From Flavobacterium marginilacus (GTDB lineage: Bacteria > Bacteroidota > Bacteroidia > Flavobacteriales > Flavobacteriaceae), in assembly GCF_026870155.1 (NCBI RefSeq), contig NZ_CP113975.1:4340001-4404000 (forward strand): a stretch of DNA of 64,000 nucleotides, in the 5' to 3' direction. Under the pieces are notes generated by a model that saw nothing but the letters and a program-made list of their open reading frames with translations, did not search any database and was not told where the DNA came from. Both the position numbers and the translations under genes were made by a program. Shown here one piece after another: positions 5,260 to 57,942 of this stretch. The stretch's first letter is position 1. Each line of letters begins with the position of its first letter.

Positions 5260-6522
5260 TTATTTGCCAAACAATAAAAAGGCAATCAGAAGCGTGATTA
5301 TAATATTGAAAATCTGAGCTGTCAAAAAAGCGTACAATGGCTTTTTGCTATTATTAGTAAACAAATCTTTGAAATTAGTTTCCAATCCAATACTGGTAAA
5401 AGCCAGCGCAAACCAAAGCCCCTGGAGATTCTTCAGACTGTCTTTAACCGTATCTCTTGTTTCGGGGGAAATCAGAAAAGAAAAAACCAAAGAAGCGACA
5501 ATAAACCCAATCACAAACTTTGGAAAACGTTCCCAGATAACTCCTAAAGTTGGTTTCGCCGTAACAGCATCCGATGATTTATTCTGGGCATACGACCAAT
5601 AAACGGATATCGCAAAAGCTGCTAATCCCAGTAATACATTCTGCGAAAATTTAACAATTGTGCTAATCTTCAAAGCAGTTTCTCCAACTAATGTTCCCGA
5701 AGCAACAACAGCTCCCGAAGTATCGATACTGCCACCGAGCCAGGCTCCTGTAACTTCTTCTGCAAAATTGAAGTGCTTGGCAACCATTGGCATAAAAATC
5801 ATCATTGGAATGGCCGTTACCAATACCATTGAAATGACATAAGACAGTTTCTTCGAATCGCCTTTGATGGCTCCGGATGTTGCAATCGCAGCCGAAACAC
5901 CGCAGATGGAAACAGCACTGGAAATCATTAAGGCTAATTCCTCATCAACTTTAAGCTTCTTACACACCCAAAAAGCAAAATACCAAACGGACAAAACTAC
6001 CACTAAAGCTTGAATCAGCCCTAGAGAACCTGCCTTTAGTATATCCGAAAATATGACACCGGTTCCTAACAATACCAAACCGATTTTTACAAAAATTTCG
6101 GTTGAAAGTGCGGTGCGGAACCATTCTGGAAGCTTGAAAAAATTACCTATAGACAATCCTATAATCAGGCTGAAAATAACTGCCTCTAAATTGAGCCCCT
6201 TGATTACAGTATTACCCGCTATAATCAAGGCCGCTACTGTCAATACAAACACTATTGGAAAACCCAATAAAAATTTCTTAACCGATTTCCCAACCAAAAA
6301 AACGCCTAGTATACCAATCCCTAAAAGGTAAATAAATTGCAGAAAAAGTTCTTTTATATTCGTACCGCTGCATACATTATTCTGCAGATCGGCCCCGTTT
6401 GACCACTTGAATACAGGAACCGAAGGCAGGTAAATAAAAAGAGAAATTCCAATTATCAAAAAACCTAAAAGCACTGCTGCCCAATCTTCATGAATAGTAA
6501 ATTGTTTTGTTTTTAATGCCAT
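5260..6522 (-). CDS. YeiH/UPF0324-family putative sulfate exporter
   Basis: 420 residues with about ten hydrophobic helices throughout. Family signatures are the GLSIGN segment after about residue 120 and SICGVSAAIATSGAIKG near 205-221, with a C-terminal LTAQIFNIIITLLIAFLLFG helix. It belongs to the YeiH / Cons_hypoth698 family of inner-membrane proteins, often annotated as putative sulfate exporters on genome-context grounds. The start lies 31 bp after the FGE gene, so they are probably co-transcribed. In a cell hydrolysing sulfate esters, an exporter for excess sulfate or sulfite would be sensible. The transported ion is inferred from family naming and context. Confidence 0.85.
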   Translation of the reverse strand: MALKTKQFTIHEDWAAVLLGFLIIGISLFIYLPSVPVFKWSNGADLQNNVCSGTNIKELFLQFIYLLGIGILGVFLVGKSVKKFLLGFPIVFVLTVAALIIAGNTVIKGLNLEAVIFSLIIGLSIGNFFKLPEWFRTALSTEIFVKIGLVLLGTGVIFSDILKAGSLGLIQALVVVLSVWYFAFWVCKKLKVDEELALMISSAVSICGVSAAIATSGAIKGDSKKLSYVISMVLVTAIPMMIFMPMVAKHFNFAEEVTGAWLGGSIDTSGAVVASGTLVGETALKISTIVKFSQNVLLGLAAFAISVYWSYAQNKSSDAVTAKPTLGVIWERFPKFVIGFIVASLVFSFLISPETRDTVKDSLKNLQGLWFALAFTSIGLETNFKDLFTNNSKKPLYAFLTAQIFNIIITLLIAFLLFGK

Positions 6523-6553: not shown

Positions 6554-7636
6554 TTATTTATCCTTCACACAGCGGAAACCTAAGTGATTGCAGGCACTTG
6601 TAGTCTCTCCTTTACCGCGGCTTCCCGCCACATAACGAATACAGTATTGATCGCTGCATAAATAAGAACCGCCTCTTTGAACATGTTTTTCTACACCCGG
6701 TTCTTCTGGGTCATAACTGGCCGAAGGCCCGGTGGGATTATCAACTGCACTGCTTTTATAATAATCGTCTCGGTATAAATCACTGCACCATTCCCATACA
6801 TTTCCTTCCAGATCATAAATCCCATATGGATTTTTAGGAAACGATTTTACCGGAGCTGCTCCTGTAAAACCATCTTCGGCTGTGTTATTATCCGGAAAAG
6901 ATCCCTGAAAAATATTCGCTGCCCATTTTCCGTCTGGCTTGAGTTCCGTACCCCAGTAATATTTTGCAGAAGGTCTTCCGGCTCTTGCTGCAAACTCCCA
7001 TTCGGCTTCGGTTGGAAGCCTTTTTCCTGCCCATTCGGCATAAGCCTTAGCATCTAAATAACTAACCTGCACTACAGGATAATTTTCCAGCCCAGCAATA
7101 CTGCTTTCTGGCCCAGCAGGATGCTGCCAGCTGGCACCCGGAACGTACTGCCACCATTGCTGTATATTATCCAAAGCCACCTTTCCTACTGGAGGCACAA
7201 ATACCGCCGAACCTGGCACTAAATTCTCGAGCGGAACACCTGGATAATCATTTGGATCCAATGGTCTTTCGGCAATGGTTACATAATTAGTGGCCTTCAC
7301 AAAAGCGGCAAACTGTGCATTAGTTACTTCATGCTCATCAATCCAATAGCCTTTAACACTTACTTTGTGAACAGGTTTTGCATCGGGATAATCATTGGTT
7401 CCCATGCTGAATTCGCCTCCATCAACCCAGACCATTCCTCTGGTCGAAGCTGCTGTATGCTCTTCTGAAGTTTTATTAATGGATTGCAGCAATAATGCTT
7501 TTTTGGATGTATTTGCCTTGCACATAGCCTTACAATCAGCTGCTGAAACAACTGCTAACGCTTTATTTTCTTGTCCATAAGCTGAAAAACCTGCAAAACT
7601 AATTGCTGCAATTACACTATATATATTTTTATTCAT
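6554..7636 (-). CDS. Formylglycine-generating enzyme (sulfatase-maturating, SUMF1-type), exported
   Basis: About 360 residues from the preferred ATG at 7636 (an upstream ATG at 7651 adds MSLLI). Signal peptide IYSVIAAISFAGFSAYGQ. The FGE-sulfatase domain spans about residues 70-360: MVWVDGGEFSMGTNDYP, YWIDEHEVTNAQFAAFV, RLPTEAEWEFAARAG, GNVWEWCSD and the C-terminal GGSYLCSDQYC. That last motif holds the two catalytic copper-binding cysteines (C332 and C337 counted from 7651) that distinguish true FGE from fold relatives such as GldK. The enzyme oxidises the cysteine of CxPxR sulfatase motifs to formylglycine using oxygen. Three sulfatases with CxPxR lie nearby, so it is probably their maturase in the periplasm. 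It is followed by the YeiH-type gene. Confidence 0.93.
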   Translation of the reverse strand: MNKNIYSVIAAISFAGFSAYGQENKALAVVSAADCKAMCKANTSKKALLLQSINKTSEEHTAASTRGMVWVDGGEFSMGTNDYPDAKPVHKVSVKGYWIDEHEVTNAQFAAFVKATNYVTIAERPLDPNDYPGVPLENLVPGSAVFVPPVGKVALDNIQQWWQYVPGASWQHPAGPESSIAGLENYPVVQVSYLDAKAYAEWAGKRLPTEAEWEFAARAGRPSAKYYWGTELKPDGKWAANIFQGSFPDNNTAEDGFTGAAPVKSFPKNPYGIYDLEGNVWEWCSDLYRDDYYKSSAVDNPTGPSASYDPEEPGVEKHVQRGGSYLCSDQYCIRYVAGSRGKGETTSACNHLGFRCVKDK

Positions 7637-7683
7637 GATAAGTAAGCTCAAAATAATGTGAAAAGTATTCTATTCCATTTTAA

Positions 7684-8096: not shown

Positions 8097-8810
8097 TTAA
8101 TGAGCCAAAGCTGCATCAACATCTTTTTTCAAGTCACCTAAGCCGTCTTTCTTGAAAACAGTTTTACCGTTTTGGTATAAAATCAAAGTTGGAAAAACCT
8201 TTACTGTTTTCAAATCGGCTATTACCTTCGGGTTGTCTTCCAGATCAATTTCAACAATTTTCAAATTAGTCCCATTTTCTGCCCTGATAGCTTCCAAAAC
8301 TGGTTTTACTTTTTTGCAGGCGCCACAATATCTTGAACCAATATCTACTAAAACAGCCTTGTTTTCTGCAATAATTTTTTTGTACTCTGCCAATGTCAAT
8401 TTACTTTTTGAATTAGTATAAAAAGGTTTTCCAGATCCAATCCATGCGGCGATTCCGCCTTCAAGATCATGCACTTCCAAGAAACCATTTTTTAATAATT
8501 CTTTTGCCAGCTGACCGCTTCTTCCTGCACCGATTGAATATATAAAAACAGGTTTTGTTTTATCTAACTGAGCCGCATATTTAGCATAATTTTCTGTTTG
8601 CAAATTAAAATTAACTGCACCGTCAATGTGATTAATAGCAAACTCTTCGGTACTTCGGGCATCAATTAACTGCGGTTTCTTCTGCTCCTTAATTTTCGCA
8701 TAAAAAGCATCTATCTGCAATGTAAATGGATTTTGATTTTGAGCAAAACCGACAATTGCAAAAAGCAAAACCAAAGCTGTAACCCTCTTTTTGAATTTTT
8801 TATTTTCCAT
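8097..8810 (-). CDS. Exported rhodanese-thioredoxin fusion protein, rhodanese Cys replaced by Ser
   Basis: 237 residues: signal peptide (about 1-23, LLFAIVGFAQ), rhodanese domain (about 30-130; LIDARSTEEFAINHIDGA, DLEGGIAAW), thioredoxin domain (about 140-235; CGAC at 162-165, VFPTLILYQNGK). The rhodanese active-site loop, normally CxxGxR, reads SIGAGR (S92), so it should lack sulfurtransferase activity. The thioredoxin site is YCGAC rather than WCGPC. It is probably a periplasmic redox or persulfide-binding protein. The gap to the upstream hydroxylase-family gene is 11 bp, so they are co-transcribed in the sulfatase operon. A role in keeping sulfatase or FGE cysteines reduced is only an inference. 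Confidence 0.88.
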   Translation of the reverse strand: MENKKFKKRVTALVLLFAIVGFAQNQNPFTLQIDAFYAKIKEQKKPQLIDARSTEEFAINHIDGAVNFNLQTENYAKYAAQLDKTKPVFIYSIGAGRSGQLAKELLKNGFLEVHDLEGGIAAWIGSGKPFYTNSKSKLTLAEYKKIIAENKAVLVDIGSRYCGACKKVKPVLEAIRAENGTNLKIVEIDLEDNPKVIADLKTVKVFPTLILYQNGKTVFKKDGLGDLKKDVDAALAH

Positions 8811-8821
8811 AACAATTTTCT

Positions 8822-9892
8822 TTATGGTTCAACTGGTTCGAAGTAATTTTGACTTACCGGAACTGATTCCTTCTTCTTTTGGGAAATAGGCAAAGCACGG
8901 ACTCCATCTGCAAGCGGGCTTCCTTCAATTTTAGATTTGAATATCGGCCAAAGGAACTGTGCATACCATTCTTCGCTTTTGTATGTTTTGGTTCCATAGG
9001 ATTCAGGGAATTTACGAGTGATTAAACCCGTTCCGAAAATCACATCCCAAATGAAAAACATGTTTCCAAAATTTCCTTTAAAATGTCCCACTCCATCTCC
9101 ACTAGTGTCTGCGTGATGTGCATGATGTGTAGCAGGAGTTGAAATCAAACGCTCCAAAACCCATGCAATAGGATGAAGTACTTTATATTTATAAAACGGT
9201 TTGTCCCATGCTATACTGGAATGCGCTCCCAAAGTGATAAAACTTTTAACCACCAAAACGAATAAAGCTGGCAGTCCCAATCCTAAATAGGTCAAAGTGG
9301 CCGTCAAGTAAATCTGGGAGAAAAATACCGTATAAATAAAGTTTTGTCTTGATGCCATTGCCATTCCCATGTACGGAGCCGAATGGTGTGTTCTATGAAA
9401 ACGCCACAAAAACGGCACTTGATGATGTAAACGATGGTACCAGTACTGCGTTAAATCATCAGCAATTGCAATCAGGAAAAAACCTCCCCAAAAAGGAACC
9501 CAAGAAAGCGTATTTGCTAAATTCGGAATTAAATACGGCAACACTGTTAAACTAAAAAATGCTGTTACTGGCGGCAAAAGCAACTTTGGCGCAAGAAAAC
9601 TAATAATGTCTATTTTTCGTTCCCTTCCAGTCCATTGATCGTCGTATAAACCTGCTGTAAATTCAACTGCTCCCAAAACGAGCATAAAAACAATCAATCC
9701 CCAAGTTCTAATGTTTTCGAACGCTGGTTTTACAAATTCTAAAAATGATGGTAATGCAATATGTGATTCTGATGCAGCACCATTATTTAATTTGAAATAA
9801 AGGTAAATTGCCAATACCGGCAAAGTATAAATAAAAAGACTGATGCTTATGTCTTTTGTTAATTTTCTTTTTAAATTTTGATCTAATGCCAT
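8822..9892 (-). CDS. Fatty acid hydroxylase / sterol desaturase family membrane protein
   Basis: 356 residues with several membrane helices (about 18-34, 63-80, 100-125, 135-150, 185-225). The di-iron histidine clusters are complete: HRLHH (153-157), HRTHH (166-170), H224 in LGAHSS and HHAHH (256-260). Family members are membrane oxygenases that hydroxylate or desaturate lipids. The substrate is not evident. Its position in a sulfatase operon allows two readings: oxidation of an alkyl or sterol moiety freed from a sulfate ester, or membrane-lipid remodelling. It lies 7 bp after a 39-aa peptide ORF and 11 bp before the rhodanese-thioredoxin gene. Confidence 0.88.
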   Translation of the reverse strand: MALDQNLKRKLTKDISISLFIYTLPVLAIYLYFKLNNGAASESHIALPSFLEFVKPAFENIRTWGLIVFMLVLGAVEFTAGLYDDQWTGRERKIDIISFLAPKLLLPPVTAFFSLTVLPYLIPNLANTLSWVPFWGGFFLIAIADDLTQYWYHRLHHQVPFLWRFHRTHHSAPYMGMAMASRQNFIYTVFFSQIYLTATLTYLGLGLPALFVLVVKSFITLGAHSSIAWDKPFYKYKVLHPIAWVLERLISTPATHHAHHADTSGDGVGHFKGNFGNMFFIWDVIFGTGLITRKFPESYGTKTYKSEEWYAQFLWPIFKSKIEGSPLADGVRALPISQKKKESVPVSQNYFEPVEP

Positions 9893-10125: not shown

Positions 10126-12042
10126 TTAATTACTGCTGCCAGCCTGAGTTGCTTTATGAATCAGTTCCTGAAGGTTTTGATTTTTGTCCCCTGAAGGATT
10201 GTGTATTTTTCTTCCTAACACATCCTGCCAGTCAATTAACGGATAAACGTTGTTCTCCTTCGCCTGCTCATCGAACAGTTTTTTAAGCTCTTCCAATTTT
10301 TCAGGATACTTTTTAGCCAAATTATTGCGCTCGTTAAAATCTTCATTCAGATTGTACAACTCCCAGACATCAGCATCAAAATTACTTTGTGCCGGTGCTT
10401 GATTTTTGCTCCCAGCATTTGGGGACGTAAAGGGATTTGCATGCGATGCAGCAGCTTTCCATCCGTCTTTGTAAATAGCTCTGTTCCCAAAGATGTAATA
10501 GTACTGCACTTTATGTAACGATTCTGCTTTTGGGTCATTCAAAGAAGCATATAAAGACGAACCCTGAATAATATCCTGTTTAATTTCCTTGATTTTTTCA
10601 GGAGCTTTGATTCCAGCAATTTCCAATGTCGTAGGAAGAATGTCTGTTACGTGGCTGTATTGGTTTCTGATGCCTCCTTTTTCTTTGATTCCTTTTGGAT
10701 AATGAATAATCAAAGGATTACGGGTTCCTCCTTCTGACTGTGCATCTTGTTTCCAGTTTTTGAAAGGAGCATTGGTAGCCTGTGCCCAGCCTAACGGATA
10801 ATTGGTGTTCAAACCTTTTGCAGTTCCAATCTCTCCAATTTTAGCCAAATTAGACTGAAGATTCTGCTCGTCTGTAACTCCTTGAGAAAAAAGACTCTGG
10901 CTAATTGTACCTACCTGACTGCCTTCTTTACTGGCTCCGTTATCGCCAATTGCAACAAAAATCAAAGTGTTATCCAATTGATTGGTCTCTTTCAGATAAT
11001 TTACCACTCTGCCAATTTCATGGTCGGTATAAGTAAGATAACCAGCATATACTTCCATAAATCTGGCATACACTTTCTTTTGGTCAGGAGATAATTTCTT
11101 CCATTCTGAAATAATAGCATTACGTTCCGGCAATACAGCATTGGCAGAGATTACACCCAGTTTCTTTTGGTTTGCCAATACTTTTTCGCGGTAAACATCC
11201 CAGCCTTCGTCAAATTTGCCTTTGTAAGCATCGCTCCAAGAAGCCTCCACTTGATGGGGTGCATGAGCTGCTCCCGGTGCATAGTATAAAAAGAATGGCT
11301 TTCCAGGCGCCGCTTTTTGCTGTGTTTTGATATAACTGATAGCTTTATCTGTAATGAGTTCATTCAAATGACGACCATCTGATTTTACGTGTGCCTGATC
11401 TTCTACTAAATCAGGATTGTACTGATCGGTCTGTGATCCTAAGAATCCAAAAAAGTGATCGAATCCTTTTCCTGTAGGCCATCTGTCAAATGGTCCTGCA
11501 TCGGTGGCATCTTCATCTGGTGTCACGCCATATTTACCTACTGCAAAAGTATTGTATCCGTTTTCACGTAAAATCTCTGCAATTGTTCCTTTGTCTGATG
11601 GAATTCTTCCGTCCCAGCCTGGAAAACCAGCTGATAAGATAGTATGCGAAAAACCGCTAACGTGTACTCTTCCTGAATTTCTTCCTGTTAAAAGTGCCGC
11701 GCGTGTCGGTGCGCAGATAGCAGTCGTATGGAAATTGGTATAACGAAGTCCGTTATTTGCCAAAGCATCAAATGTCGGAGTCTGTATCAAACCTCCAAAT
11801 GCACTGGAAGCTCCAAATCCCACATCATCGAGCAGAATCCAAACCACGTTTGGTGCTCCGGCTGGTGCTTTTACCGGCTCCGGCCAATATTCTTTGGACT
11901 CGGCCAATGTTTTGCCAATAATGCCTTTATAATCTGCATCTGGCTTATTTTGGGAAATACCCAGCTGGGCAACTAGTAAAGCTGTAAGCAGCAATCCTTT
12001 TTGAGGAGACTTCAACTTTGCATTGAATTTAAAATTTTTCAT
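10126..12042 (-). CDS. Secreted arylsulfatase-type sulfatase 1 (Cys-type)
   Basis: 638 residues, signal peptide about 15-31 (LLVAQLGISQ). Sulfatase core: metal ligands D72-D73 (LLDDVG), formylglycine motif C110 in ICAPTRAALLTG, GKYG at about 170, and IGDNGASKEG supplying further metal ligands. The C-terminal subdomain carries the usual DVWELYNLNEDFNE and YPEKLEELKKLF elements. Length and motifs fit the PAS-like arylsulfatase group (S1 family). It hydrolyses a sulfate ester after formylglycine conversion; the FGE gene lies downstream in the locus. It is a close tandem paralogue of sulfatase 2, with near-identical stretches throughout. Substrate not determinable from sequence. Confidence 0.94.
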   Translation of the reverse strand: MKNFKFNAKLKSPQKGLLLTALLVAQLGISQNKPDADYKGIIGKTLAESKEYWPEPVKAPAGAPNVVWILLDDVGFGASSAFGGLIQTPTFDALANNGLRYTNFHTTAICAPTRAALLTGRNSGRVHVSGFSHTILSAGFPGWDGRIPSDKGTIAEILRENGYNTFAVGKYGVTPDEDATDAGPFDRWPTGKGFDHFFGFLGSQTDQYNPDLVEDQAHVKSDGRHLNELITDKAISYIKTQQKAAPGKPFFLYYAPGAAHAPHQVEASWSDAYKGKFDEGWDVYREKVLANQKKLGVISANAVLPERNAIISEWKKLSPDQKKVYARFMEVYAGYLTYTDHEIGRVVNYLKETNQLDNTLIFVAIGDNGASKEGSQVGTISQSLFSQGVTDEQNLQSNLAKIGEIGTAKGLNTNYPLGWAQATNAPFKNWKQDAQSEGGTRNPLIIHYPKGIKEKGGIRNQYSHVTDILPTTLEIAGIKAPEKIKEIKQDIIQGSSLYASLNDPKAESLHKVQYYYIFGNRAIYKDGWKAAASHANPFTSPNAGSKNQAPAQSNFDADVWELYNLNEDFNERNNLAKKYPEKLEELKKLFDEQAKENNVYPLIDWQDVLGRKIHNPSGDKNQNLQELIHKATQAGSSN

Positions 12043-12394: not shown

Positions 12395-14308
12395 TTATTT
12401 GTTTGCTTTGTACAATAACTCTGCAGCCGACTGTCCTTCGGTTCCTTTCGTCTGGTGGATTTTTCTCTGGTACACATCCGACCAGTCAATTAATGGATAC
12501 AGGTTGTTTTTCTTAGCCTGCTCATCAAATAATTTTTTCAGTTCCGCCAGTTTTTCAGGATATTTTTTAGCCAAATCTTTTCTTTCATTAAAATCTTCAT
12601 TGATATTGTACAATTCCCAGACATCTTTGTCAAAATCTGCATTCAAAAGATTCGCTTTGGATTTATCTGCCAATGCCTCTTTTACCTCAATTGAATTTGG
12701 GTGATGCGCAGCTGCTGCTTTCCAGCCATCGTTATAAATGGATCTCGCTCCAAAAATATAATAGTGCTGGATTTTATGCGAAGAAACCACTTTGGCATCA
12801 TTCAAAGAATTGTAAAACGAATAGCCCTGAATGGTATCCTGTCTAATCTCTCTAATCGTTTCAGGTGCTTTAACTCCAATAACATCAAGAGTTGTTGGCA
12901 GAATATCAATCACGTGGCTGTATTGATTTCGGATTCCGCCTTTTTCCTGAATCCCTTTTGGATAATACACTATCAATGGATTGTGCGTTCCTCCTTCGGA
13001 GTTGGCATCCTGTTTCCAAGATTTGAACGGAGTGTTAGTCGCCTGAGCCCAGCCTAATGGGTAATTAGCATACGTTTGAGGCGTCCCAATTTCACCAATC
13101 TTGTTTAAATTATTTTGGAAAACCTGCTCTTCAGTTTCACCGGCTTTATAAGTCTGTCTCTCTACAGCTCCCTGCAGCGTCCCTTCCTTACTCGCTCCAT
13201 TATCACCTATCAAAACAAAGACAACCGTATTATCCAGCTGATTACTTTCTTTCAAATAACTTACCAGTCTTCCAATTTCGTAATCGGTATACGTTAAATA
13301 TCCGGCATATACTTCCATGAACTTTGAATATACTTTCTTTTGATCCGGCGTTAATTTTTTCCAGTCGGCAATGAGTGAATTGCGTTCAGGCAGTTCTGCA
13401 TTGGCTGGAACAACTCCCAGTTTCTTTTGGTTGGCCAATGTTTTTTCGCGATAAGCATCCCAGCCATCATCAAATTTTCCTTTGTAAGCATCGCTCCACT
13501 TCGCTTCTACCTGATGCGGTGCATGAACTGCTGCTGGTGAATAATATAAAAAGAATGGTTTTCCAGGCGCTGCTTTATGCTGTCTGGTAATATAACTGAT
13601 TGCCTTATCTGTAATCTGTTCGCTAAGATGTCTTCCGTCTGGAGTAACATGTGCCTGATCTTCGATCAAATCTGGTTTGTACTGATCGGTTGCAGAACCC
13701 AAGAATCCAAAGAAATGTTCGAAACCTTTGCCTGTTGGCCATCTGTCAAATGGTCCTGCATCGGTGGCATCTTCATCAGGCGTTACACCATATTTGCCTA
13801 CACCAAAAGTGCTGTATCCTTTGTCACGCAGAATCTCAGCAACAGTTCCATTCTTTGAAGGAATTCTTCCATCCCATCCCGGGAAGCCTGCAGACATAAT
13901 CGTATGTGAGAATCCGCCGACATGGACTTTATGAGAATTACTTCCTGTCAGTAATGCAGAACGTGTAGGAGCACAGATAGCTGTAGTATGGAAATTGGTA
14001 TATCTCAGTCCATTATTAGCAAGACTCTCTAAAACTGGTGTATGTATCAAGCCCCCAAAAGCACTTGAAGCGCCGTAACCTACATCATCTAAAACAATCC
14101 AGACTACATTTGGAGCACCTTTTGGAGCTGAAACCGGTTCTGGCCAATATTCTTTGGATTCAGCTAATGTTTTACCGATTACTCCTTTGTAATCAGTATT
14201 GGGTTTGTTTTGCGCAAAACCAAATTGAGCAATCAGCAAAGCGGTAACCAAAAGTCCTTTCTGCGGGCTTTTGATAATGCTGTTATATTTTAAATTTTTC
14301 ATTTTCAT
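12395..14308 (-). CDS. Secreted arylsulfatase-type sulfatase 2 (Cys-type)
   Basis: 637 residues; signal peptide about 17-33 (LLIAQFGFAQ). Catalytic motif C112 in ICAPTRSALLTG, metal site LDDVGYG, IGDNGASKEG. It is a tandem duplicate of sulfatase 1: the two can be aligned from the signal peptide (KSPQKGLL) to the C-terminal YPLIDW. They diverge mainly in a loop after DNGASKEG and at the extreme C-terminus. It is probably exported and activated by the locus FGE. The gap to sulfatase 3 upstream is 50 bp, consistent with one operon. Duplication suggests different but related substrates. Confidence 0.94.
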   Translation of the reverse strand: MKMKNLKYNSIIKSPQKGLLVTALLIAQFGFAQNKPNTDYKGVIGKTLAESKEYWPEPVSAPKGAPNVVWIVLDDVGYGASSAFGGLIHTPVLESLANNGLRYTNFHTTAICAPTRSALLTGSNSHKVHVGGFSHTIMSAGFPGWDGRIPSKNGTVAEILRDKGYSTFGVGKYGVTPDEDATDAGPFDRWPTGKGFEHFFGFLGSATDQYKPDLIEDQAHVTPDGRHLSEQITDKAISYITRQHKAAPGKPFFLYYSPAAVHAPHQVEAKWSDAYKGKFDDGWDAYREKTLANQKKLGVVPANAELPERNSLIADWKKLTPDQKKVYSKFMEVYAGYLTYTDYEIGRLVSYLKESNQLDNTVVFVLIGDNGASKEGTLQGAVERQTYKAGETEEQVFQNNLNKIGEIGTPQTYANYPLGWAQATNTPFKSWKQDANSEGGTHNPLIVYYPKGIQEKGGIRNQYSHVIDILPTTLDVIGVKAPETIREIRQDTIQGYSFYNSLNDAKVVSSHKIQHYYIFGARSIYNDGWKAAAAHHPNSIEVKEALADKSKANLLNADFDKDVWELYNINEDFNERKDLAKKYPEKLAELKKLFDEQAKKNNLYPLIDWSDVYQRKIHQTKGTEGQSAAELLYKANK

Positions 14309-14358: not shown

Positions 14359-15939
14359 CTATTTTATTTTATTCCAATCTTCAACACCTACTTTTATTGA
14401 CCATTGCTGATGTAATTCAATCAGCGTCTGGAGCAGTTTTGGTTCTAACTTTGCCAGATTTTTTGTTTCTGTTCTATCTGCTGCCAGATTGTACAATTCC
14501 CAAGGCTGATTGTTTTCGGCTACTGCTTTCCACTGCCCTTTTCTTACTGCTTTACTGCCTTCATGTTCCCAAAACAACGCTTCATGTTCATCAGATTGCT
14601 GTCCTTCAAATTCTTTTTTTAAACTAATACCTTCTAAAGAGACGAGATTTTTCCCTTGAAAAGAATCTGGGTATTGCAAACCCGCAAACTCTAGACAAGT
14701 TGGAAAAACATCAATTAAATGGCTTACTCTATTACTTACTATACCAGCCTTAATATGCTTTGGATAATACGCTATAAAGGGGGAAGCGATACCGCCTTCG
14801 TGAGTGTTCTTTTTGAATAATTGAAAAGGCGTGTTGCTCACATTTCCCCACGGACTTTCATAGCTGTCAATCGATGCTGCCGAACCTGCAGTACCATTTT
14901 TTTGTGTAACATAATTCCAGTTTTTCACATCATCGGCACTTCCGCCATTATCAGAAAGAAAAAGAACAAGCGTATTTTCTTCTTCACCCAAAGACTTTAC
15001 TTTCTGCAGGATTTCTCCAATTCCGGCATCCATTCTGTCGACCATAGCAGCGTAAATTGCCATGCGGGTATCCCATTTGTCTTTTTCTTCTGCACTTAGT
15101 TTTTCCCAATCCGGCACTTTTTCAAAACGATTGGATAAGTCCGCGTTTTTATCAATTATTCCTTGTTCTTTTAATTTATTAAAACGCTTTGTTCTCAATT
15201 TATCCCAGCCTACCAAGTATTTTCCTTTGTATTTTTCAATATCTTCCGGCAATGCCTGAATGGGCCAATGTGGTGCATTATAAGCTACATACAGAAAAAA
15301 AGGTTTTTGTTCCCTGCGCTGTTTTTCTAAAGAACTAATAGCAAAATTGGTAATTTCCTGAGTCAGATAAGTAGAAGAATCCGTGCGGATAATTTCTTTA
15401 TCTCCTTTCAAAAAAGTAACTTTTCTTCCGTCGTTATACAAAGGTTCCGAGTTGAAATAACTGCTGCCATTGTTTTGTAAAGTAAAAGAATCATCAAACC
15501 CTCTATTCACCGCCCAGGCTGATGGAACCAAACCTACATGCCATTTTCCAGAAACAATTGTAGTGTATCCCGCCTGTTGGAGCGCCTGTCCAATCGTAAT
15601 ACAATGCTCGTTTAAATATCCCTGATACGCAGGAAATCCTTTATCCTGTACCATGTCACCAATACCTGCCTGATGTGAATACAATCCTGTGAGTAATGAA
15701 GCCCGAGAAGGACAGCATCGTCCTGCATTGTAAAACTGATTTAAAATAAGCCCGTTTTTAGCGAGCTTATTTAAATTTGGAGTTTTAATTTCTGAGCCAA
15801 AAGCACCAATATCTGAAAATCCTAGATCATCAGCCAAAATGACAATGATGTTAGGCTGCTTTTTCTGTGCAGACAGCTGCATTTGTGCAACAACCAATAG
15901 CGCAAGTATGAACAGTTTTTTAATCATTTTATTACGCAT
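14359..15939 (-). CDS. Secreted sulfatase 3 (Cys-type, S1 family)
   Basis: 526 residues with signal peptide (LFILALLVVAQMQLSAQ). Sulfatase motifs: PNIIVILADDLGFSD (metal Asp pair), C75 in GRCCPSRASLLTG (CxPSR), GKWHVG, LSDNGGSADD. It is shorter than sulfatases 1 and 2 and only distantly similar, closer to the generic arylsulfatase A-like form. It starts 13 bp after susD with AAGG upstream of the ATG; a second ATG four codons on (MIKKLF) is also possible. Co-transcription with susCD suggests that it acts on the material the SusCD pair imports, or on its oligomers in the periplasm. Confidence 0.93.
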   Translation of the reverse strand: MRNKMIKKLFILALLVVAQMQLSAQKKQPNIIVILADDLGFSDIGAFGSEIKTPNLNKLAKNGLILNQFYNAGRCCPSRASLLTGLYSHQAGIGDMVQDKGFPAYQGYLNEHCITIGQALQQAGYTTIVSGKWHVGLVPSAWAVNRGFDDSFTLQNNGSSYFNSEPLYNDGRKVTFLKGDKEIIRTDSSTYLTQEITNFAISSLEKQRREQKPFFLYVAYNAPHWPIQALPEDIEKYKGKYLVGWDKLRTKRFNKLKEQGIIDKNADLSNRFEKVPDWEKLSAEEKDKWDTRMAIYAAMVDRMDAGIGEILQKVKSLGEEENTLVLFLSDNGGSADDVKNWNYVTQKNGTAGSAASIDSYESPWGNVSNTPFQLFKKNTHEGGIASPFIAYYPKHIKAGIVSNRVSHLIDVFPTCLEFAGLQYPDSFQGKNLVSLEGISLKKEFEGQQSDEHEALFWEHEGSKAVRKGQWKAVAENNQPWELYNLAADRTETKNLAKLEPKLLQTLIELHQQWSIKVGVEDWNKIK

Positions 15940-15952
15940 TTACGCCTTTTAA

Positions 15953-17425
15953 TTAATAACCTGGATTTTGTGGCAGTCCTACTGGATCAATGTTTCGCTC
16001 ACTCTGAGGAATCGGGTACAGATTATTTCTTTCGGAAACAGAATTTTTGGCAGTTACCTTTTTAATTTCGGTAACCAAAGTTCCCCAGCGCACTAAGTCA
16101 AACCATCTTTGTCCTTCCTGAACAAATTCTTTTTTGCGCTCTTCGCGGATAGCTTCTCTAAGTTGTGGCTCAGTAAGCCCAATTAAATCTACTGCTGCAT
16201 CCGGTGTCGAGATTGGTTTTCCAAAAGCTCTTCTTCTCACCTGATTCACAAGCTCATGAGCTTCCAGAGTTGCACCGTCTTTTTCGTTGATAGCTTCTGC
16301 AAGAGATAATAAAACATCAGCATAACGGATTATTGGAAAATTGATCGCGACATTTGACGGTGCTGCCAAATTGGTTAAATCCAAATATTTGCCAAAAATT
16401 GGCTTTGGAAAAGTATACAGCGTTCCAGTAGCCGGATTCAATAATTGTTTTTTATAAGTCACATCTCTTCGGGTATCACCTGCTGCATAAATGTCATAAA
16501 ACAAAGCTACATCCGAAATAATATCTGCCGGTTCTGTTGCGGTAAATCCAGTAAATGAAGTCGCTTGGAAAGTACTTCCGCTGGAACCGTTTCCTGCTTG
16601 ATTTGGTTCGAACTGAACAGAAAAAATATGTTCTTTTCCGTTCTTTTTAGTTTTGGTAAAAATGTCCTGAAAGTTTTCAAAAAGCGCATATCCATAGCCG
16701 CCGTTAATTACTTCTTTGGCTTTTAGAATCGTATTAGACCAATCTTTCCTAGTCAGATATACTTTTGCCAAAATGGCTTTTGCAGCACCCGATGTAGCTC
16801 TTCCAGCATCATTGGCCGGATAAGCTGCTGGCAGGCTTTCAGCGTCTTTTAAGTCTAAAATAATCTGAGCATACACTTCTTCTACAGTGGCTCTCTTGGA
16901 TTTTAAACTCTCTAATTGAATAGAAGCCGGTTCGTGCAGAACGATTGGAACCCCTCCCCAAAGACGTACAGCCTGAAAGTACAGTAAACCTCTGATGAAT
17001 TTGGCTTCATTAATCAATCTAGTTTTTATAACATCTGAACCAGCGGCTCTAGGAATATTATCAATGGCTATATTGGCTCTATTGATTCCTGCATAAATTT
17101 GTCGCCAAGCCACCTGAACACGGTCTGAAGTAGCATCATGGGTTAAACTGCTCAATGCTCTTACCTGAGGATTCGTTGCCGAAACTCCCGCCGATGCATA
17201 ATCCGAAGCCATATCGGTAAGGAAATAAAGATTTCTTCCAAATAAACTCTGCTCTCCCGGATCAAGGCTCAATGAAGCATAAACTGCTGTAACACTGGCA
17301 ACAGCATCATCCTGAGTTTTAAAGAAATTTTCTTCGGTTATAAAAGAGGTTGGTGTCACCTCCAGATCCGTGCACGATACTAATATAACGGCACTTAATA
17401 TGAATGTTGTTATTATCTTTTTCAT
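15953..17425 (-). CDS. SusD/RagB-family outer-membrane nutrient-binding lipoprotein
   Basis: 490 residues; lipoprotein signal with lipobox LVSC (C18). Typical SusD features: TPTSFITEENFFKTQDDAVA near the N-terminus, NEAKFIRGLLYFQAVRLWGGVPIV in the TPR-like core, and the C-terminal LREAIREERKKEFVQEGQRWFDLVRWG. It caps the SusC transporter on the cell surface and binds the ligand. It follows susC by 16 bp. Most SusCD pairs handle glycans, but other polymers or small molecules are possible. The neighbouring sulfatases point to a sulfated ligand (inference). Confidence 0.95.
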   Translation of the reverse strand: MKKIITTFILSAVILVSCTDLEVTPTSFITEENFFKTQDDAVASVTAVYASLSLDPGEQSLFGRNLYFLTDMASDYASAGVSATNPQVRALSSLTHDATSDRVQVAWRQIYAGINRANIAIDNIPRAAGSDVIKTRLINEAKFIRGLLYFQAVRLWGGVPIVLHEPASIQLESLKSKRATVEEVYAQIILDLKDAESLPAAYPANDAGRATSGAAKAILAKVYLTRKDWSNTILKAKEVINGGYGYALFENFQDIFTKTKKNGKEHIFSVQFEPNQAGNGSSGSTFQATSFTGFTATEPADIISDVALFYDIYAAGDTRRDVTYKKQLLNPATGTLYTFPKPIFGKYLDLTNLAAPSNVAINFPIIRYADVLLSLAEAINEKDGATLEAHELVNQVRRRAFGKPISTPDAAVDLIGLTEPQLREAIREERKKEFVQEGQRWFDLVRWGTLVTEIKKVTAKNSVSERNNLYPIPQSERNIDPVGLPQNPGY

Positions 17426-17441
17426 TGTTATATTTTTTTAC

Positions 17442-20400
17442 TTAAAAAGTTACATTTAAGCCCGTAATAAATGTTTTAGAATTTGGATAGGATCCAAAGT
17501 CAATTCCGGGATATAAATTATTCTGTTCATAGGAACTTACCTCTGGATCATAGCCTGTGTATTTAGTCCATGTAAATAAGTTCTCGGCAGATACGTATAC
17601 CTTAATGCTCTTAGTTCCAATTTTTGAAGAAATGCTTTTTGGGAAAGTATATCCTAAAGTGATTAGCTTTAATCTCAGGAAAGAAGCATCTTCTACATAA
17701 CGTTCCGACACAATTCCAAGCGGAGAACTTGAAGCTCTTGGGATTTCATTACTTGGATTAGCCGGTGTCCAGCGATCTAATAAAGTGGCTGCCGCATTAG
17801 TTCCAAGAGTAGAAATTTCCAATTGCTGATTTAGAGCGTTAAATATTTTACCTCCATAAGAACCTTGGAACGAAAAATTCAAATCAAAGTTGCTATAAGA
17901 AAGCGTATTACTGAAACTTCCAACAAATTTTGGCTGTGAAGTCCCAAGATCTCCTTTGTCAAGCGCAGTAATTACTCCGTCCCCGTTGGTATCTACATAT
18001 TTTCTATCACCCACTTTTGTATTGGCAAGACTGTTAATTTTTGGCTGCGTATTAACTTCTTCCTGAGTCTGGAAAATTCCGTTGGTTTTGTATCCCCAAA
18101 AAGTTCCCAGCGGTAATCCCACTTTAACAGTTACGGGCTGTTGCTGCAATAAAGAACCATTTGGCACTATCGGGAAAAATTGATCCACTCCATTACCAAT
18201 TTCCAGAACTTTATTTCTGTTGGCAGAAAAAACAAAGTTAGAATTCCATGAAAACGTTTCTGTTTTTATATTTTCGGTAATCAGACCAATTTCAATACCT
18301 TTATTCTCTACACCACCAATATTCTGCAGCACTGTAGCAAATCCAGAAGTCAATGGAACTGGAACATTGATAAGCAGATCATTTGTCTTTTTGTAATAGG
18401 CATCAAAAACAAAATTTATTTTTCTGTCCAATAATGATAAATCTAAACCTATATTATACTGATCCGTTTTTTCCCATCTCAGATCCGGGTTGGCCAAACG
18501 GGTTGGTGCCAATCCTGTCTGCAGTGTCCCGCCAAAAGCATAATTAACAGACCCTATGGAAGCTAAGGAAAGATAATTACCAATTTCCTGATTCCCTGTA
18601 GTTCCTGCACTCAGCCTAAGTTTTGCATCACTTACTCCTTTAATATTTTTGGCAAAATCCTCTTCGGTTATGTTCCAAGAAAATCCAGCTGAAGGGAAAT
18701 AACCCCAAAGTGATTCAGTACCAAATCTTGAAGACCCATCCGCACGCGCAGATACTGTCAGGTTATATCTCCCTTTATATGAATAATTTACTCTTGCCAG
18801 CCATGATTTCAATACGCTTTCGAATGATTCAGTATAAGGCTTTACAGCCACACCATCCTGTAATGCATTGTAAGTATTTGCATCATTTACAAAAGTATTA
18901 GCTCCTGCATTCACTACTTCTCCCTGGGTATATTGAAGTGTGTATCCAGCCAAAGCAGAGAATTTATGATCTTCTCCAAAATGAGTATTGTAGTTCAAAG
19001 TATTTTCATTCAATACTGAACTTACCAGTCTGTCGCCAGAAGAAGCAAGACCTTTTGTTGGAGCACCAGTAGTAGTATTCGATGGCGCATAATAGTTTTG
19101 TTTGGTGTTAATTACGTCACCGCTGACAGCAGCTTTGGCCGTAATTTCTTTGTTGATTTTATATTCACCAAACAAACTGGTCAAAATTCTGTTGATTTTG
19201 GTTTCATTTATAGTGTTTTCCAAATCATTAATTGGGTTGGGCACATAACCGTTAACTGATGTCGCATAAGGATTATTGGTTACATTATAGCTTCCGTCAT
19301 CATTTCTGATTGGAACCACGGGTGCCGTTAGCAGGATACTAACCAATGGATTGGGGTTTCTGCCGGCTGCAGTACCGCCATTAGTTCCTACTCCATTCGA
19401 TATTGAATTGCTATAATTGGCATTCACTCCAAATTTAAAAGCCTGAGAATAATTTCTTTCATAATTGGCACGAAGCGAAATTCGTTTAAAATCTGATCCT
19501 ATTACAATTCCTTGCTGATCAAAATAACCTGATGACACTGAATATCTGGAGCGGTCATCTCCGCCTGAAAATGTTAACTGGTGGTTTTGAACCGGTGCCG
19601 CCGAATTAAAAGCTGCTGACTGCCAGTCATATCCTCCTGAAGTTTTAAGAGCTTCAATCTGGGCCGCTGAAAAAGAAGGTGCCTGCCCTATACTTGCCTG
19701 AACATCATTTCGCAGGCTTGCCCATTGGCCCGCATCTAATAAATCTATCTTTTTTGAAACATTCTGAATTCCAAAATAGCCTTGATAAGAAATATTGTCC
19801 TGCCCTTTGGTTCCTTTTTTAGTTGTAATAAGCACCACGCCATTTGCTCCTCGGGAACCATAAATCGCAGTTGCAGATGCATCTTTCAATACATCAATCG
19901 ACTCAATATCGGCAGGATTGATTGTTGACAGCACATTTACTCCAGCACCTGCATAAGTAACTCCGGCCGTACCATTGCTGTTGTCATTATAAATTAGTAC
20001 TCCATCTACAACATACAGCGGTTCATTACCTGCTGTAATTGAATTTCCTCCTCTAATACGCACACTGGAAGTTGCGCCTGGACGGCCTGAACTTTGGGTT
20101 ACAACAACACCTGGAATTGCACCGCGCAATAAATTATCTGCTGAAGAAGTAACCTGCGCCAAATTTGCTTTTGGAATAGATGAAATTGCACCCGTGATAT
20201 CTTTTTTCTTTTGCGTTCCATACCCCACAACCACCAGCTCATTCAACTCTTGAAGATCCTCCTCTAAGTTGACAATAAGCGGGCTTCCGTCTACAATCAC
20301 TTCAGCTTTTTTGTAGCCAATGTAGGTTATGATTAAAGTGTATGGGAATTTTTGTCCGGTTTGGAAATAAAATTTTCCCTCTGCATCAGTTACCACGCCG

Positions 20401-20573
20401 TGGGTGGTTCCTTTAATAGTTACGCTAGCTCCTGCTACTGGTAAATTTGAAACTTTATTAACTACAGTTCCGTCAAGTTTAGACTGAATAAGGGGTTTCG
20501 TATCTTGTGCCTGGATTCCAAATGAAAACAGAAAAATACCCAGCCAGGAAAGATTATATAATATTTTTTTCAT
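17442..20573 (-). CDS. SusC/RagA-family TonB-dependent transporter
   Basis: 1043 residues: signal peptide (LSWLGIFLFSFGIQAQ), carboxypeptidase-D regulatory-like domain (about 33-110; GTVVNKVSNLPVAGASVTIK, GVVTDAEGKF), TonB box region ELVVVGYGTQKKKDITGAIS, plug domain (about 125-250; RIRGGNSITAGNEPLYVVDG, DATAIYGSRGANGVVLITTKKG) and a 22-strand-type barrel ending in the aromatic FITGLNVTF. It imports a ligand captured by SusD using TonB energy. It is the first structural gene of the sulfatase operon, preceded by an unusually long leader holding a cysteine-rich upstream ORF. No ECF sigma or anti-sigma gene lies next to it. Confidence 0.95.
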   Translation of the reverse strand: MKKILYNLSWLGIFLFSFGIQAQDTKPLIQSKLDGTVVNKVSNLPVAGASVTIKGTTHGVVTDAEGKFYFQTGQKFPYTLIITYIGYKKAEVIVDGSPLIVNLEEDLQELNELVVVGYGTQKKKDITGAISSIPKANLAQVTSSADNLLRGAIPGVVVTQSSGRPGATSSVRIRGGNSITAGNEPLYVVDGVLIYNDNSNGTAGVTYAGAGVNVLSTINPADIESIDVLKDASATAIYGSRGANGVVLITTKKGTKGQDNISYQGYFGIQNVSKKIDLLDAGQWASLRNDVQASIGQAPSFSAAQIEALKTSGGYDWQSAAFNSAAPVQNHQLTFSGGDDRSRYSVSSGYFDQQGIVIGSDFKRISLRANYERNYSQAFKFGVNANYSNSISNGVGTNGGTAAGRNPNPLVSILLTAPVVPIRNDDGSYNVTNNPYATSVNGYVPNPINDLENTINETKINRILTSLFGEYKINKEITAKAAVSGDVINTKQNYYAPSNTTTGAPTKGLASSGDRLVSSVLNENTLNYNTHFGEDHKFSALAGYTLQYTQGEVVNAGANTFVNDANTYNALQDGVAVKPYTESFESVLKSWLARVNYSYKGRYNLTVSARADGSSRFGTESLWGYFPSAGFSWNITEEDFAKNIKGVSDAKLRLSAGTTGNQEIGNYLSLASIGSVNYAFGGTLQTGLAPTRLANPDLRWEKTDQYNIGLDLSLLDRKINFVFDAYYKKTNDLLINVPVPLTSGFATVLQNIGGVENKGIEIGLITENIKTETFSWNSNFVFSANRNKVLEIGNGVDQFFPIVPNGSLLQQQPVTVKVGLPLGTFWGYKTNGIFQTQEEVNTQPKINSLANTKVGDRKYVDTNGDGVITALDKGDLGTSQPKFVGSFSNTLSYSNFDLNFSFQGSYGGKIFNALNQQLEISTLGTNAAATLLDRWTPANPSNEIPRASSSPLGIVSERYVEDASFLRLKLITLGYTFPKSISSKIGTKSIKVYVSAENLFTWTKYTGYDPEVSSYEQNNLYPGIDFGSYPNSKTFITGLNVTF

Positions 20574-20661
20574 TACTTTGTTTTGGTTTAATAAATAAGG
20601 AGTCTGAAAACTGATTTATCAATTTTCATTTTCCGTTTAACGATACATTTTTTTTAAGCCT

Positions 20662-20695
20662 GCCATTTCTGTTGCCGCAGAAATGGCTTTTTTTT
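20662..20695 (+). terminator. Terminator-like hairpin in susC leader region (plus orientation)
   Basis: 10-bp perfect stem GCCATTTCTG / CAGAAATGGC, 6-nt loop, followed by eight T on the plus strand. No plus-strand gene precedes it. In the minus-strand susC leader RNA the same hairpin forms, but with an A tract in front rather than a T tract behind, so it would not terminate susC transcripts. It may be an antisense-transcript terminator or a leader structure. Confidence 0.6.
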
Positions 20696-20720
20696 ATCTA
20701 CAACACATTAGTTTTTTCAT
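20694..20720 (-). CDS. Possible 8-codon mini-ORF in susC leader (MKKLMCCR)
   Basis: ATG at 20720 to TAA at 20694 encodes MKKLMCCR, ending at the base of the leader hairpin. Its two adjacent cysteines echo the upstream cysteine-rich leader ORF. It is too short to judge alone and is recorded as part of the leader architecture. Confidence 0.2.
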   Translation of the reverse strand: MKKLMCCR

Positions 20721-20793: not shown

Positions 20794-20827
20794 AAAATAA
20801 TTTATACTGGATGAAATAAATTATTTT
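20794..20827. repeat. A/T-rich inverted repeat in susC leader
   Basis: Perfect 12-bp arms AAAATAATTTAT (20794-20805) and ATAAATTATTTT (20816-20827) with a 10-nt loop, 43 bp downstream of the cysteine-rich leader ORF in susC transcription. A weak A/U hairpin that could take part in alternative leader folding. Confidence 0.45.
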
Positions 20828-20870: not shown

Positions 20871-20924
20871 CTAACAGCAGCAACACATTCGACGGAGTGT
20901 GCCGAATGATACAAGTTCCTGCAT
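20871..20924 (-). CDS. Cysteine-run leader peptide (upstream ORF), candidate attenuator of the sulfatase operon
   Basis: ATG at 20924 opens a 17-codon frame, MQELVSFGTLRRMCCCC, with TAG directly after the four cysteine codons (TGT TGC TGC TGT). It lies about 75 nt after a predicted transcription start and about 300 nt before the susC start, with hairpins between. Runs of the regulatory amino acid at the end of a short leader ORF are the hallmark of ribosome-stalling attenuators (trp, his, and Cys-run leaders upstream of sulfur genes in actinobacteria). Here the downstream operon scavenges sulfate esters, so charged Cys-tRNA would be a logical signal. Translation is not shown. No classical minus-strand terminator follows, so control could act on Rho-dependent termination or on translation. 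Confidence 0.6.
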   Translation of the reverse strand: MQELVSFGTLRRMCCCC

Positions 20925-21007
20925 GATCAAAAAAAGAATGTTTTTGATAGTCTTCACAATTTTCAGTATTTGTTAGTTATTTTTTTAAACTCTACTATTT
21001 CTATAGA

Positions 21008-21038
21008 CAAAAGTATATTAAAAATAATTAACAGCCAA
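21008..21038 (-). promoter_or_regulatory. Putative promoter of the susC-sulfatase operon
   Basis: Minus strand: -7 TACTTTTG (21015-21008), 20-bp spacer, -33 TTG (21038-21036). Transcription from near 21000 would include the cysteine-run leader ORF and about 430 nt of leader before susC. It lies about 180 bp downstream of the IS30 element. Confidence 0.6.
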
Positions 21039-21223: not shown

Positions 21224-22204
21224 TCAACATATAAATGCAACAGTATTCAATTTATTGATTTTTTCGGCGAAAATTTCATTAGGTGTTTTATAGCCAAATC
21301 TTTTTCTGGGTCTGTTGTTTAATGTATTAACTACTGTTTTTATTTGTTGTTCTTCGATGTTTTCAAAGTTAGATTTTTTAGGAAAATATTGTCTTATTAA
21401 TCCGTTTAAATTTTCATTGGCTCCTCGTTCCCAGCTATGGTAGGGTTTGGCAAAATAATAATCGATATCTAAATCTTCTGCAATGGCCCGATGATTGGCA
21501 AATTCCTTTCCATTATCCGAAGTAATGGTCTTGATTATTGGTTTCCAATCTTTCAATAATTCAATTGTTTTCTGCTGTATTGCACTAGCTTCTTTGCTTT
21601 CTACTTTTCCCATAAAAAGTATTCCAGAGGCTCTGTCATTGATAGTTAGTAACGCTCCTTTGTGATTCTTACCAATGACCAAATCAATCTCTAAATCGCC
21701 CAATCTACTTTTCTTTTCTACTATCTTTGGACGCTCGCTAATATCGACCCTACCAATAATAAGTCCTCTTTTATCCTTTAAATGTCCTCTTTTTTTATAC
21801 TTTTTACCCTTGGTCCTAAGATGTTTATATAAGAGTCCTCCTTTGCGTTTATTTTCCCAAATATATTGATAGATTCTTTCTTTAGAAACCATTGCTCTTT
21901 TGTCAATTTTTGCTCTGCCAACAATTTGTTCAGGACTGTAATCTTGCTTTAAATAAAACAAAATATTTGCTTCAACTTCTGAGGTTAAAGTGCATTTTTT
22001 GATCTTAACCTTATGCCTGTTTAAAGCTTTTTTATCCGCCAAAACAGCTTTATAAACACCACTTCTTTGATCAGAATTACGTTTTATTTCTCGAGAAATA
22101 ACTGATTTGTTTTTATCTACCAATTCAGCAATTTCGGAAATACTGATACCGGCATTTCTATATACTTCTATTTTGTATCTTTGTTCTAACGTTAAATGTG
22201 CCAT
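21224..22204 (-). CDS. IS30-family transposase
   Basis: 326 residues, full length. An N-terminal HTH (about 4-42; LTLEQRYKIEVYRNAGIS, ISEIAELVDKNKSVISREI) typical of IS30 is followed by the DDE catalytic core: D174 (LEIDLVIG), D230 (TSDNGKEF) and E264 (GANENLNG). The 33-residue spacing between the second D and E is characteristic of IS30. The C-terminal NNRPRKRFGYKTPNEIF is also diagnostic. There is no frameshift or internal stop, so it is likely active. The stop codon lies inside the left terminal repeat. Confidence 0.96.
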   Translation of the reverse strand: MAHLTLEQRYKIEVYRNAGISISEIAELVDKNKSVISREIKRNSDQRSGVYKAVLADKKALNRHKVKIKKCTLTSEVEANILFYLKQDYSPEQIVGRAKIDKRAMVSKERIYQYIWENKRKGGLLYKHLRTKGKKYKKRGHLKDKRGLIIGRVDISERPKIVEKKSRLGDLEIDLVIGKNHKGALLTINDRASGILFMGKVESKEASAIQQKTIELLKDWKPIIKTITSDNGKEFANHRAIAEDLDIDYYFAKPYHSWERGANENLNGLIRQYFPKKSNFENIEEQQIKTVVNTLNNRPRKRFGYKTPNEIFAEKINKLNTVAFIC

Positions 22205-57608: not shown

Positions 57609-57616
57609 TACTTTTG
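57609..57616 (+). promoter_or_regulatory. Putative -7 box of rpsO
   Basis: TACTTTTG, exact TAnnTTTG, giving a leader of about 50 nt. No TTG is found at the proper spacing; the preceding DNA is AATTCATAATTCACAATTC-type repeat. Confidence 0.5.
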
Positions 57617-57672
57617 CACCCGTCTTACAATAGCTGTATGACATACATAATAATCATTTAAATAATATTAAA

Positions 57673-57942
57673 ATGTACTTAACTAAAGAAGTTAAAGAAG
57701 AAATCTTCGCTAAACACGGAGGAAAAGCAGAAAACACTGGATCTGCTGAAGGTCAAATCGCGTTATTCACTTACAGAATTACTCACCTTACTGAGCACTT
57801 GAAAAAAAATCGTCACGATTTTAACACTGAGCGCTCATTGGTACTATTAGTAGGTAAAAGAAGAGCTTTGTTAGATTACTTGAAGAAAACAGAGATCAAC
57901 AGATATCGTGAAATTATCAAAGTATTGGGTATTAGAAAATAA
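57673..57942 (+). CDS. rpsO: 30S ribosomal protein S15
   Basis: 89 residues, full length. S15 motifs: TGSAEGQIALFTYRITHLTEHLKKNRHD and LLVGKRRALLDYLKKTEINRYREIIKVLGIRK. Binds 16S rRNA early in 30S assembly. A terminator follows and pnp lies about 240 bp downstream, the widespread rpsO-pnp order. Confidence 0.98.
   Translation: MYLTKEVKEEIFAKHGGKAENTGSAEGQIALFTYRITHLTEHLKKNRHDFNTERSLVLLVGKRRALLDYLKKTEINRYREIIKVLGIRK

Follow-up and report, generated by a model that had tools for sequence, protein, structure and literature searches.

The window analysed here, a stretch of 64,000 nucleotides from Flavobacterium marginilacus, carries on its minus strand a set of susC, susD and sulfatase genes preceded by a short open reading frame that ends in cysteine codons. 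The question raised by this locus is whether ribosomes translating the short frame report a shortage of cysteine to the genes that follow, as was proposed in a preliminary description made from the sequence alone. The downstream genes were assigned by family searches, the match of the last one lying below the NCBIfam cut-off:

17442..20573, minus strand: susC (SusC/RagA outer membrane receptor), first gene of the operon
15953..17425, minus strand: susD
14359..15939, minus strand: sulfatase
12395..14308, minus strand: sulfatase
10126..12042, minus strand: sulfatase
8822..9892, minus strand: fatty-acid hydroxylase family protein
8097..8810, minus strand: rhodanese-thioredoxin protein
6554..7651, minus strand: FGE-sulfatase (SUMF) family protein
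5260..6522, minus strand: YeiH-type putative sulfate exporter family protein

Their common strand and spacing suggest that the genes from susC to the YeiH-type gene form a single operon. With sulfatase, FGE-sulfatase and rhodanese families present, these genes are predicted to serve the supply of cysteine and sulfur. The leader ahead of them has the following layout, in which class I and class II denote two groups of relatives introduced below:

21036..21038, minus strand: TTG at -33, leader promoter; TTTGG/TTGG kept in aligned relatives
21008..21015, minus strand: -7 box TACTTTTG, of the flavobacterial TAnnTTTG type, recurring in relatives
20992..21006, minus strand: operator-like site, CTATAGAAATAGTAG, where the transcript is presumed to begin
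20871..20957, minus strand: uORF1, 28 codons, GTG start, RMCCCC-TAG end, from sequence and conservation
20794..20827, minus strand: AT-rich inverted repeat between uORF1 and uORF2, each pair formed in 9 to 13 of 14 relatives
20694..20720, minus strand: uORF2, MKKLMCCR-stop, ATG start, from sequence and relatives
20662..20687, minus strand: hairpin H2, GCCATTTCTG-CGGCAA-CAGAAATGGC, from folding and relatives
20637..20666, minus strand: possible uORF3, MAGLKKMYR, ATG within the 3' arm of H2 (weak)
20606..20627, minus strand: hairpin H3, covarying in class I, without consensus in class II
20632-20634/20599-20601, minus strand: possible basal stem of H3, from the leader sequence and the consensus fold
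20590-20598, minus strand: U-rich tract near H3, from the leader sequence

The minus-strand frame first reported, 20924-20871, reads MQELVSFGTLRRMCCCC followed by TAG exactly as claimed, and the TTG-N20-box promoter reported with it is present as TTG at 21038-21036, N20 and TACTTTTG at 21015-21008. The promoter thereby spans 21038-21008, with CTATAGAAATAGTAG directly after it at 21006-20992. The distance to susC, given as about 300 nt, measures 298 nt from the uORF1 stop to the susC ATG (20573). The start of the frame has to be revised: the 18 codons originally described extend upstream, in an open frame, to a GTG at 20957, which is the conserved start of a 28-codon ORF encoding VKTIKNILFLIMQELVSFGTLRRMCCCC before the TAG. 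Among 56 unique relatives, codon -28 is TTG in 36, GTG in 13, AAA in 5 and ATG in 2. The second Cys ORF, the hairpins and the operator-like site had been missed. Just upstream of the leader promoter lies an IS30-family transposase gene (21224-22204). Searched with the Rfam regulatory-leader families, the susC leader matched none at gathering score, and the window as a whole gave a single match, an S15-Flavobacteria ribosomal protein leader at 57609-57675.

A tail of four Cys on an ORF did not arise in any of 5000 dinucleotide shuffles of the window's leader, and a tail with at least three Cys in the last seven residues arose in 52 of 5000. The preliminary description had proposed weighing synonymous against nonsynonymous change, and this comparison was made on 56 unique uORF1 sequences (718 pairs of 60-98.5% identity). 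For the whole of uORF1, pS was 0.342 and pN 0.147, giving a ratio of 0.43, against 1.20 when read in frame +1 and 0.54 in frame +2; the last six codons gave a pS of 0.617 and a pN of 0.068, a ratio of 0.11. Codons 1-22, with a pN/pS of 0.56, do not improve on the 0.54 of the +2 frame, and the evidence that uORF1 is coding therefore rests on its tail. There, the Cys codons exchange TGT and TGC while the amino acid changes almost never: at the first two bases of codons -4, -2 and -1, numbered back from the stop, pairs disagree in 0-2% of cases, and at the third base in 18-46%. In 49 unique tails, with the stop counted as -1, Cys stands at -5 in 47, at -3 in 48 and at -2 in 46, Met stands at -6 in 48, and the pattern MCxCC is found in nearly all; since uORF1 was called by at least three Cys in the last seven residues, these tail statistics are conditional on that choice. 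With a conserved short ORF upstream that is rich in the relevant codons and predicted to be translated, the locus has what is expected of an operon under leader attenuation by ribosomes.

How often the Cys codons are present, as opposed to how they are kept, was taken from relatives picked by the hairpin, independently of Cys. H2 occurs within two mismatches in 99 of 398 genomes of the genus, the reversed control pattern giving 8 matches; loci were taken from the matches listed, which represent part of the 99 genomes. The 90 leaders assembled comprise 79 picked by the hairpin from the matches listed and 11 by Cys pattern, the latter, into which identical hairpin loci were merged, being left out of the hairpin-picked counts. 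Among the matches listed, the 79 divide into 47 class I susC leaders (one tandem-hairpin leader, L169, being counted twice), 26 class II leaders preceding a sister SusC, mostly AQETKPLIQSKLEG, four leaders directly before sulfatase genes and two before other SusC/RagA genes. In L169:626-695 the two H2 hairpins stand in tandem before a susC.

A Cys-tailed uORF1 was found, among the matches listed, in 43/47 class I, 2/26 class II, 4/4 sulfatase and 0/2 other SusC/RagA leaders. Where at least 250 nt of upstream sequence was at hand, 49 of 76 listed loci had a Cys-tailed ORF, versus 6 of 1520 dinucleotide shuffles; the species are related, and the counts are of non-independent events. The class I operons opened contain ORFs with a sulfatase motif and N-terminus, judged by sequence reading, and the two class II operons opened (L170 and L172) have a susD-like gene and no adjoining sulfatase.

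The second frame shows a comparable distribution. In nearly all class I leaders uORF2 ends in Cys-Cys and one further residue, mostly K or R, and among the hairpin-picked matches listed Cys-Cys is present in 43/47 class I, 11/26 class II, 0/4 sulfatase and 0/2 other SusC/RagA leaders. Class II uORF2 keeps MKKRM while, among the matches listed, Cys-Cys is lost in 15/26 and all Cys in 6/26, and uORF2 may therefore have another role there. The frame of uORF3 is broken in several class II loci, so that as a conserved coding ORF it is only a lead.

Searches that started from the Cys pattern gave a complementary view. Of 299 Flavobacterium genomes, 32 contain the pattern R/S-M-C-C-C-C, at 33 places in all; the reversed control pattern had no match. 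Of 30 places opened, 8 lie before susC, 14 before a PhyH-family gene and 8 before neither; two further places are a susC leader (L223) and a PhyH leader (L224). The eight susC leaders align along their length, all with both Cys ORFs, the promoter, the operator-like site and H2; the operator-like site of one susC leader, L050, has three mismatches. In a global scan of 84,980 species, one genome apiece, for R-M-C-C-C-C-TAR, 31 loci were found, of which 12 overlap a longer ORF and 19 remain. Five of the 19 precede susC (in Flavobacterium palustre, F. taihuense, F. psychrotolerans, F. sp. HJJ and F. sp. A45), five precede the gene for MetY O-acetylhomoserine sulfhydrylase (two Bacteroidota and three Clostridia, all five proteins exceeding the NCBIfam TIGR01326 cut-off), three a Chryseobacterium TonB receptor gene (Pfam run on one), one an FGE-sulfatase gene of Lacihabitans, and five other genes.

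In the Chryseobacterium loci (L099, L102 and L112) an ORF ending in MRMCCCC-stop lies about 145 nt upstream of the receptor gene; in L102 that gene falls outside the locus, and the leader is nearly identical to that of L099. The Lacihabitans soyangensis frame (L113:6840-6963) also ends in RMCCCC-stop ahead of its FGE-sulfatase family gene, and a gene of the Rrf2 family is located about 2.7 kb upstream. The clostridial RMCCCC-stop ORFs are in L107, L111 and L119, and in L107 metY is followed by a cysteine-synthase-like ORF.

Within the genome of F. marginilacus, TGYTGYTGYTRR occurs at 79 places, and no other leader-like Cys-run ORF was seen among the 30 of them that were translated; the one other RMCCC place (L032) proved to be antisense within an acetyltransferase-like ORF. 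The sequence TGCTGCTGCTGA occurs seven times, about 1.8 kb apart, at G000:C1:5204752-5215564, pointing to a long tandem repeat or an array of genes. Beyond the genus, the only match to RMCCCC-stop among 199 genomes of the family was this genome itself. When the family was searched for the hairpin, 25 of 149 genomes matched, most of them with two mismatches, and the two-ORF leader was absent from the three loci opened (L263, L266 and L268).

Two further groups of Cys leaders were recognised in the genus. Upstream of metY in F. marginilacus itself (L135:2117-2263; G000:C1:549500-569000) there is a Cys/Met-rich MKTISDKKRMCCMMRKCVSSCCCQK with an intrinsic terminator after it, and a variant of the operator-like site, CTATCAAATTAGTCG. 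A survey of 20 metY loci, present in 19 of 31 Flavobacterium genomes, with terminators called without a shuffle control and L243 left unparsed, found an ORF with at least three Cys and, no more than 140 nt beyond it, a terminator in 12/20, and the operator-like site in 5/20. Going by the leader and terminator in those 12 loci, the genus Flavobacterium probably makes use of leader attenuation. The metY leaders of the genus are related to one another, some in tandem (L227, L232, L233 and L238). The second group stands about 80 nt upstream of a PhyH-family gene (Pfam run on one) and is formed by ORFs with 5 to 9 consecutive Cys (L034, L036, L038, L043-L046, L048, L052, L054, L057, L059, L060, L062 and L224); in L052 and L054 the frame continues beyond the Cys run.

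As regards transcription, the part of PMC9723704 available here gives TAnnTTTG as the flavobacterial -7 consensus, which the leader box TACTTTTG fits. The operator-like site is found within three mismatches in 81 of the 90 leaders, and its reverse complement stands at the presumed start of the PhyH leaders. As a genome-wide marker the motif is not specific alone: it has 59 places within two mismatches, and the reversed pattern has 71. It is probable that a first layer of sulfur control comes from a DNA-binding regulator at CTATAGAAATAGTAG. An Rrf2-family regulator gene precedes cysH in this genome, and that such a protein binds the site is a guess.

The preferred explanation, which we consider probable, is that the leader is a two-ORF cysteine sensor in which low charged tRNA-Cys stalls ribosomes and raises the expression of the operon, with shielding through ribosome residence time and the DNA-binding regulator as a further layer. 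The kept Cys codons, joined with general knowledge of leader peptides, indicate that the leader reads charged tRNA-Cys, and sensing by predicted leader translation is well supported by the comparison. The proposal of the preliminary description is thereby supported in part, in its sensor half: a lack of conservation of the ORF or its Cys run in related loci would have counted against it, and conservation was found, with the Cys codons of both ORFs kept, the tail under strong purifying selection, sulfur genes downstream, and related Cys leaders before other sulfur genes. The content of the operon suggests in turn that cysteine scarcity induces it. When charged tRNA-Cys is short, ribosomes would stall at the Cys codons of uORF1 and uORF2 and operon expression would rise, leading to import of organosulfates and release of sulfate for cysteine synthesis.

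The signal would be the duration of the ribosome's stay and probably not the choice of hairpin covered. Because the Cys run touches the stop codon of uORF1, and lies one residue from that of uORF2, stalled and terminating ribosomes would be almost co-located, which leaves little room for the classical scheme and favours shielding. A ribosome lingering at uORF1 would shield a pyrimidine-rich C-over-G stretch past the stop from Rho or RNase, and one held at uORF2 would influence the neighbouring H2/H3 region. The ratio of C over G is 1.6-2.5 in the 100 nt past uORF1 (59 loci) and mostly 0.65-1.4, with one bin of 2.58, in 26 leaders without uORF1. Such a C-over-G stretch occurs inside uORF1 as well, and its fit to Rho loading is only suggestive.

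The main rival is classical attenuation at H3, which is unlikely but better placed than the others. In this scheme H3, its basal stem and the U-rich tract would form an intrinsic terminator, set by the position of the ribosome on uORF2 or by translation of uORF3 from the ATG in H2. H3 does show covariation in each of the two class I subclades (36 and 13 sequences); the consensus fold includes a basal GGA/TCC or AAGG/CCTT stem, a T-rich stretch comes after it in the window, and the metY leaders of the genus share such a layout. However, the U-rich tract is imperfect, class II has no H3 consensus, and neither folding nor a codon-choice test revealed a mutually exclusive terminator/antiterminator pair in the susC leader, H3 being a possible terminator. 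Pairing of the uORF2 Cys codons with the H2 loop as antiterminator was rejected, the codon choice being best in 4/42 cases with a mean fractional rank of 0.53. No intrinsic terminator was seen in the folds of 15 spacers, and no U-tract lies 3' of H2 on the sense strand of the window's leader. A spacer hairpin covaries in the larger class I subclade (40 sequences).

H2 itself has one covarying outer pair (GC 29, AU 12 and AC 10 of 51); its other pairs are largely fixed by the search pattern, and its near-invariance is partly a product of how the loci were picked. H2-like hairpins also precede other SusC/RagA-family genes in L158, L185, L263 and L268, with no adjoining Cys ORF seen, so that H2 was rejected as a Cys-specific element and is probably a more general susC leader hairpin. 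In L158, L185 and L268 it lies between a FecR-like ORF, identified by sequence reading, and the SusC/RagA-family gene.

A second rival, which we regard as improbable, is that the nascent peptide arrests the ribosome through [YR]MCxCC-stop, with Met before Cys, and senses for example redox state or a metal rather than tRNA charging. The near-constant Met at -6 in a fixed motif, and the MKKRM that class II uORF2 retains after losing Cys, speak for it. But RMCCCC and YMCFCC tails, the long Cys runs of the PhyH leaders and the Cys/Met-rich metY leaders resemble one another in Cys content more than in sequence, as is expected for codon counting. Least probable is that H2 terminates a plus-strand antisense RNA and that the Cys ORFs play no part: in Bacteroides, polysaccharide loci can be under cis-antisense control, H2 is terminator-like on the plus strand only and the A-run ahead of it recurs in the genus, but the selection on Cys codons would be left unexplained and the plus-strand promoter for such an RNA is putative.

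The cysteine sensor may also be part of something wider. We put forward, tentatively, a regulon in which leader translation gauges cysteinyl-tRNA and which links synthesis through metY, governed by a leader and a terminator, with scavenging at the outer membrane through susCD and sulfatases. The scavenging branch would use a two-ORF residence-time switch without a classical terminator, on top of a DNA operator common to the two branches. If the proposed sensor is real, SusCD uptake would be coupled to the speed of translation at one amino acid, in a phylum for which no Cys leader was found in print. Its signature, a 28-codon GTG/TTG ORF ending in MCxCC-stop, a short Cys ORF and H2, would help in recognising which SusCD operons serve sulfur scavenging. 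According to the available part of PMC9723704, flavobacteria do not depend on Shine-Dalgarno signals, and the locus makes it testable how a flavobacterial leader ORF could control a gene 300 nt away.

A literature search of titles and abstract openings, with most subscription journals outside its reach, found no Cys leader reported for Bacteroidota or SusC operons. The accessible portions of PMC1262725, PMC4633059, PMC8632094, PMC2965389 and PMC13236596 deal with Cys leaders of Actinobacteria and with those preceding cysS in Rhodobacterales. Actinobacterial poly-Cys leader ORFs before cys/cbs genes (PMC1262725, PMC4633059; also treated in Canestrari et al. 2020, as cited in PMC13236596) share with the susC leader a run of Cys codons near the stop, sulfur genes downstream, the lack of an obvious intrinsic terminator and a proposed part for Rho, which in the text of PMC1262725 at hand is suggested for the actinobacterial leaders. 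The susC leader differs in belonging to another phylum, in serving organosulfate scavenging via SusCD, in having two Cys ORFs and a stop 298 nt before the gene, and in a motif, MCxCC, common to many relatives. The mycobacterial poly-Cys uORFs are leaderless, whereas the susC leader has a predicted 5' UTR of about 45 nt, the GTG lying about 45 nt past the presumed transcript start; the mycobacterial trait of a Cys run at the stop codon is found in uORF1.

In Rhodobacterales, uORFC-8-2 before cysS has tandem Cys codons thought to read tRNA-Cys charging, as far as the accessible text of PMC8632094 goes. It resembles the susC leader in being a short ORF with tandem Cys codons. Its Cys codons are part of a stem, with an intrinsic terminator after it, and neither of these was found for the susC leader; it precedes cysS, whereas uORF1 precedes susC in another phylum. 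Classical amino-acid leader attenuators such as those of trp and his carry, in their leader ORF, codons for the amino acid that the pathway makes, and in this match between leader codons and the product served the susC leader is like them, but its sensing codons touch the stop and a terminator/antiterminator pair was not found. In Escherichia coli, tnaC senses free tryptophan through its nascent peptide, whereas the susC leader is proposed to read uncharged tRNA-Cys. The likeness to tnaC, which is named in the available part of PMC1262725, is a proposed analogy: in both, a ribosome held at the end of the leader ORF would shield a Rho site.
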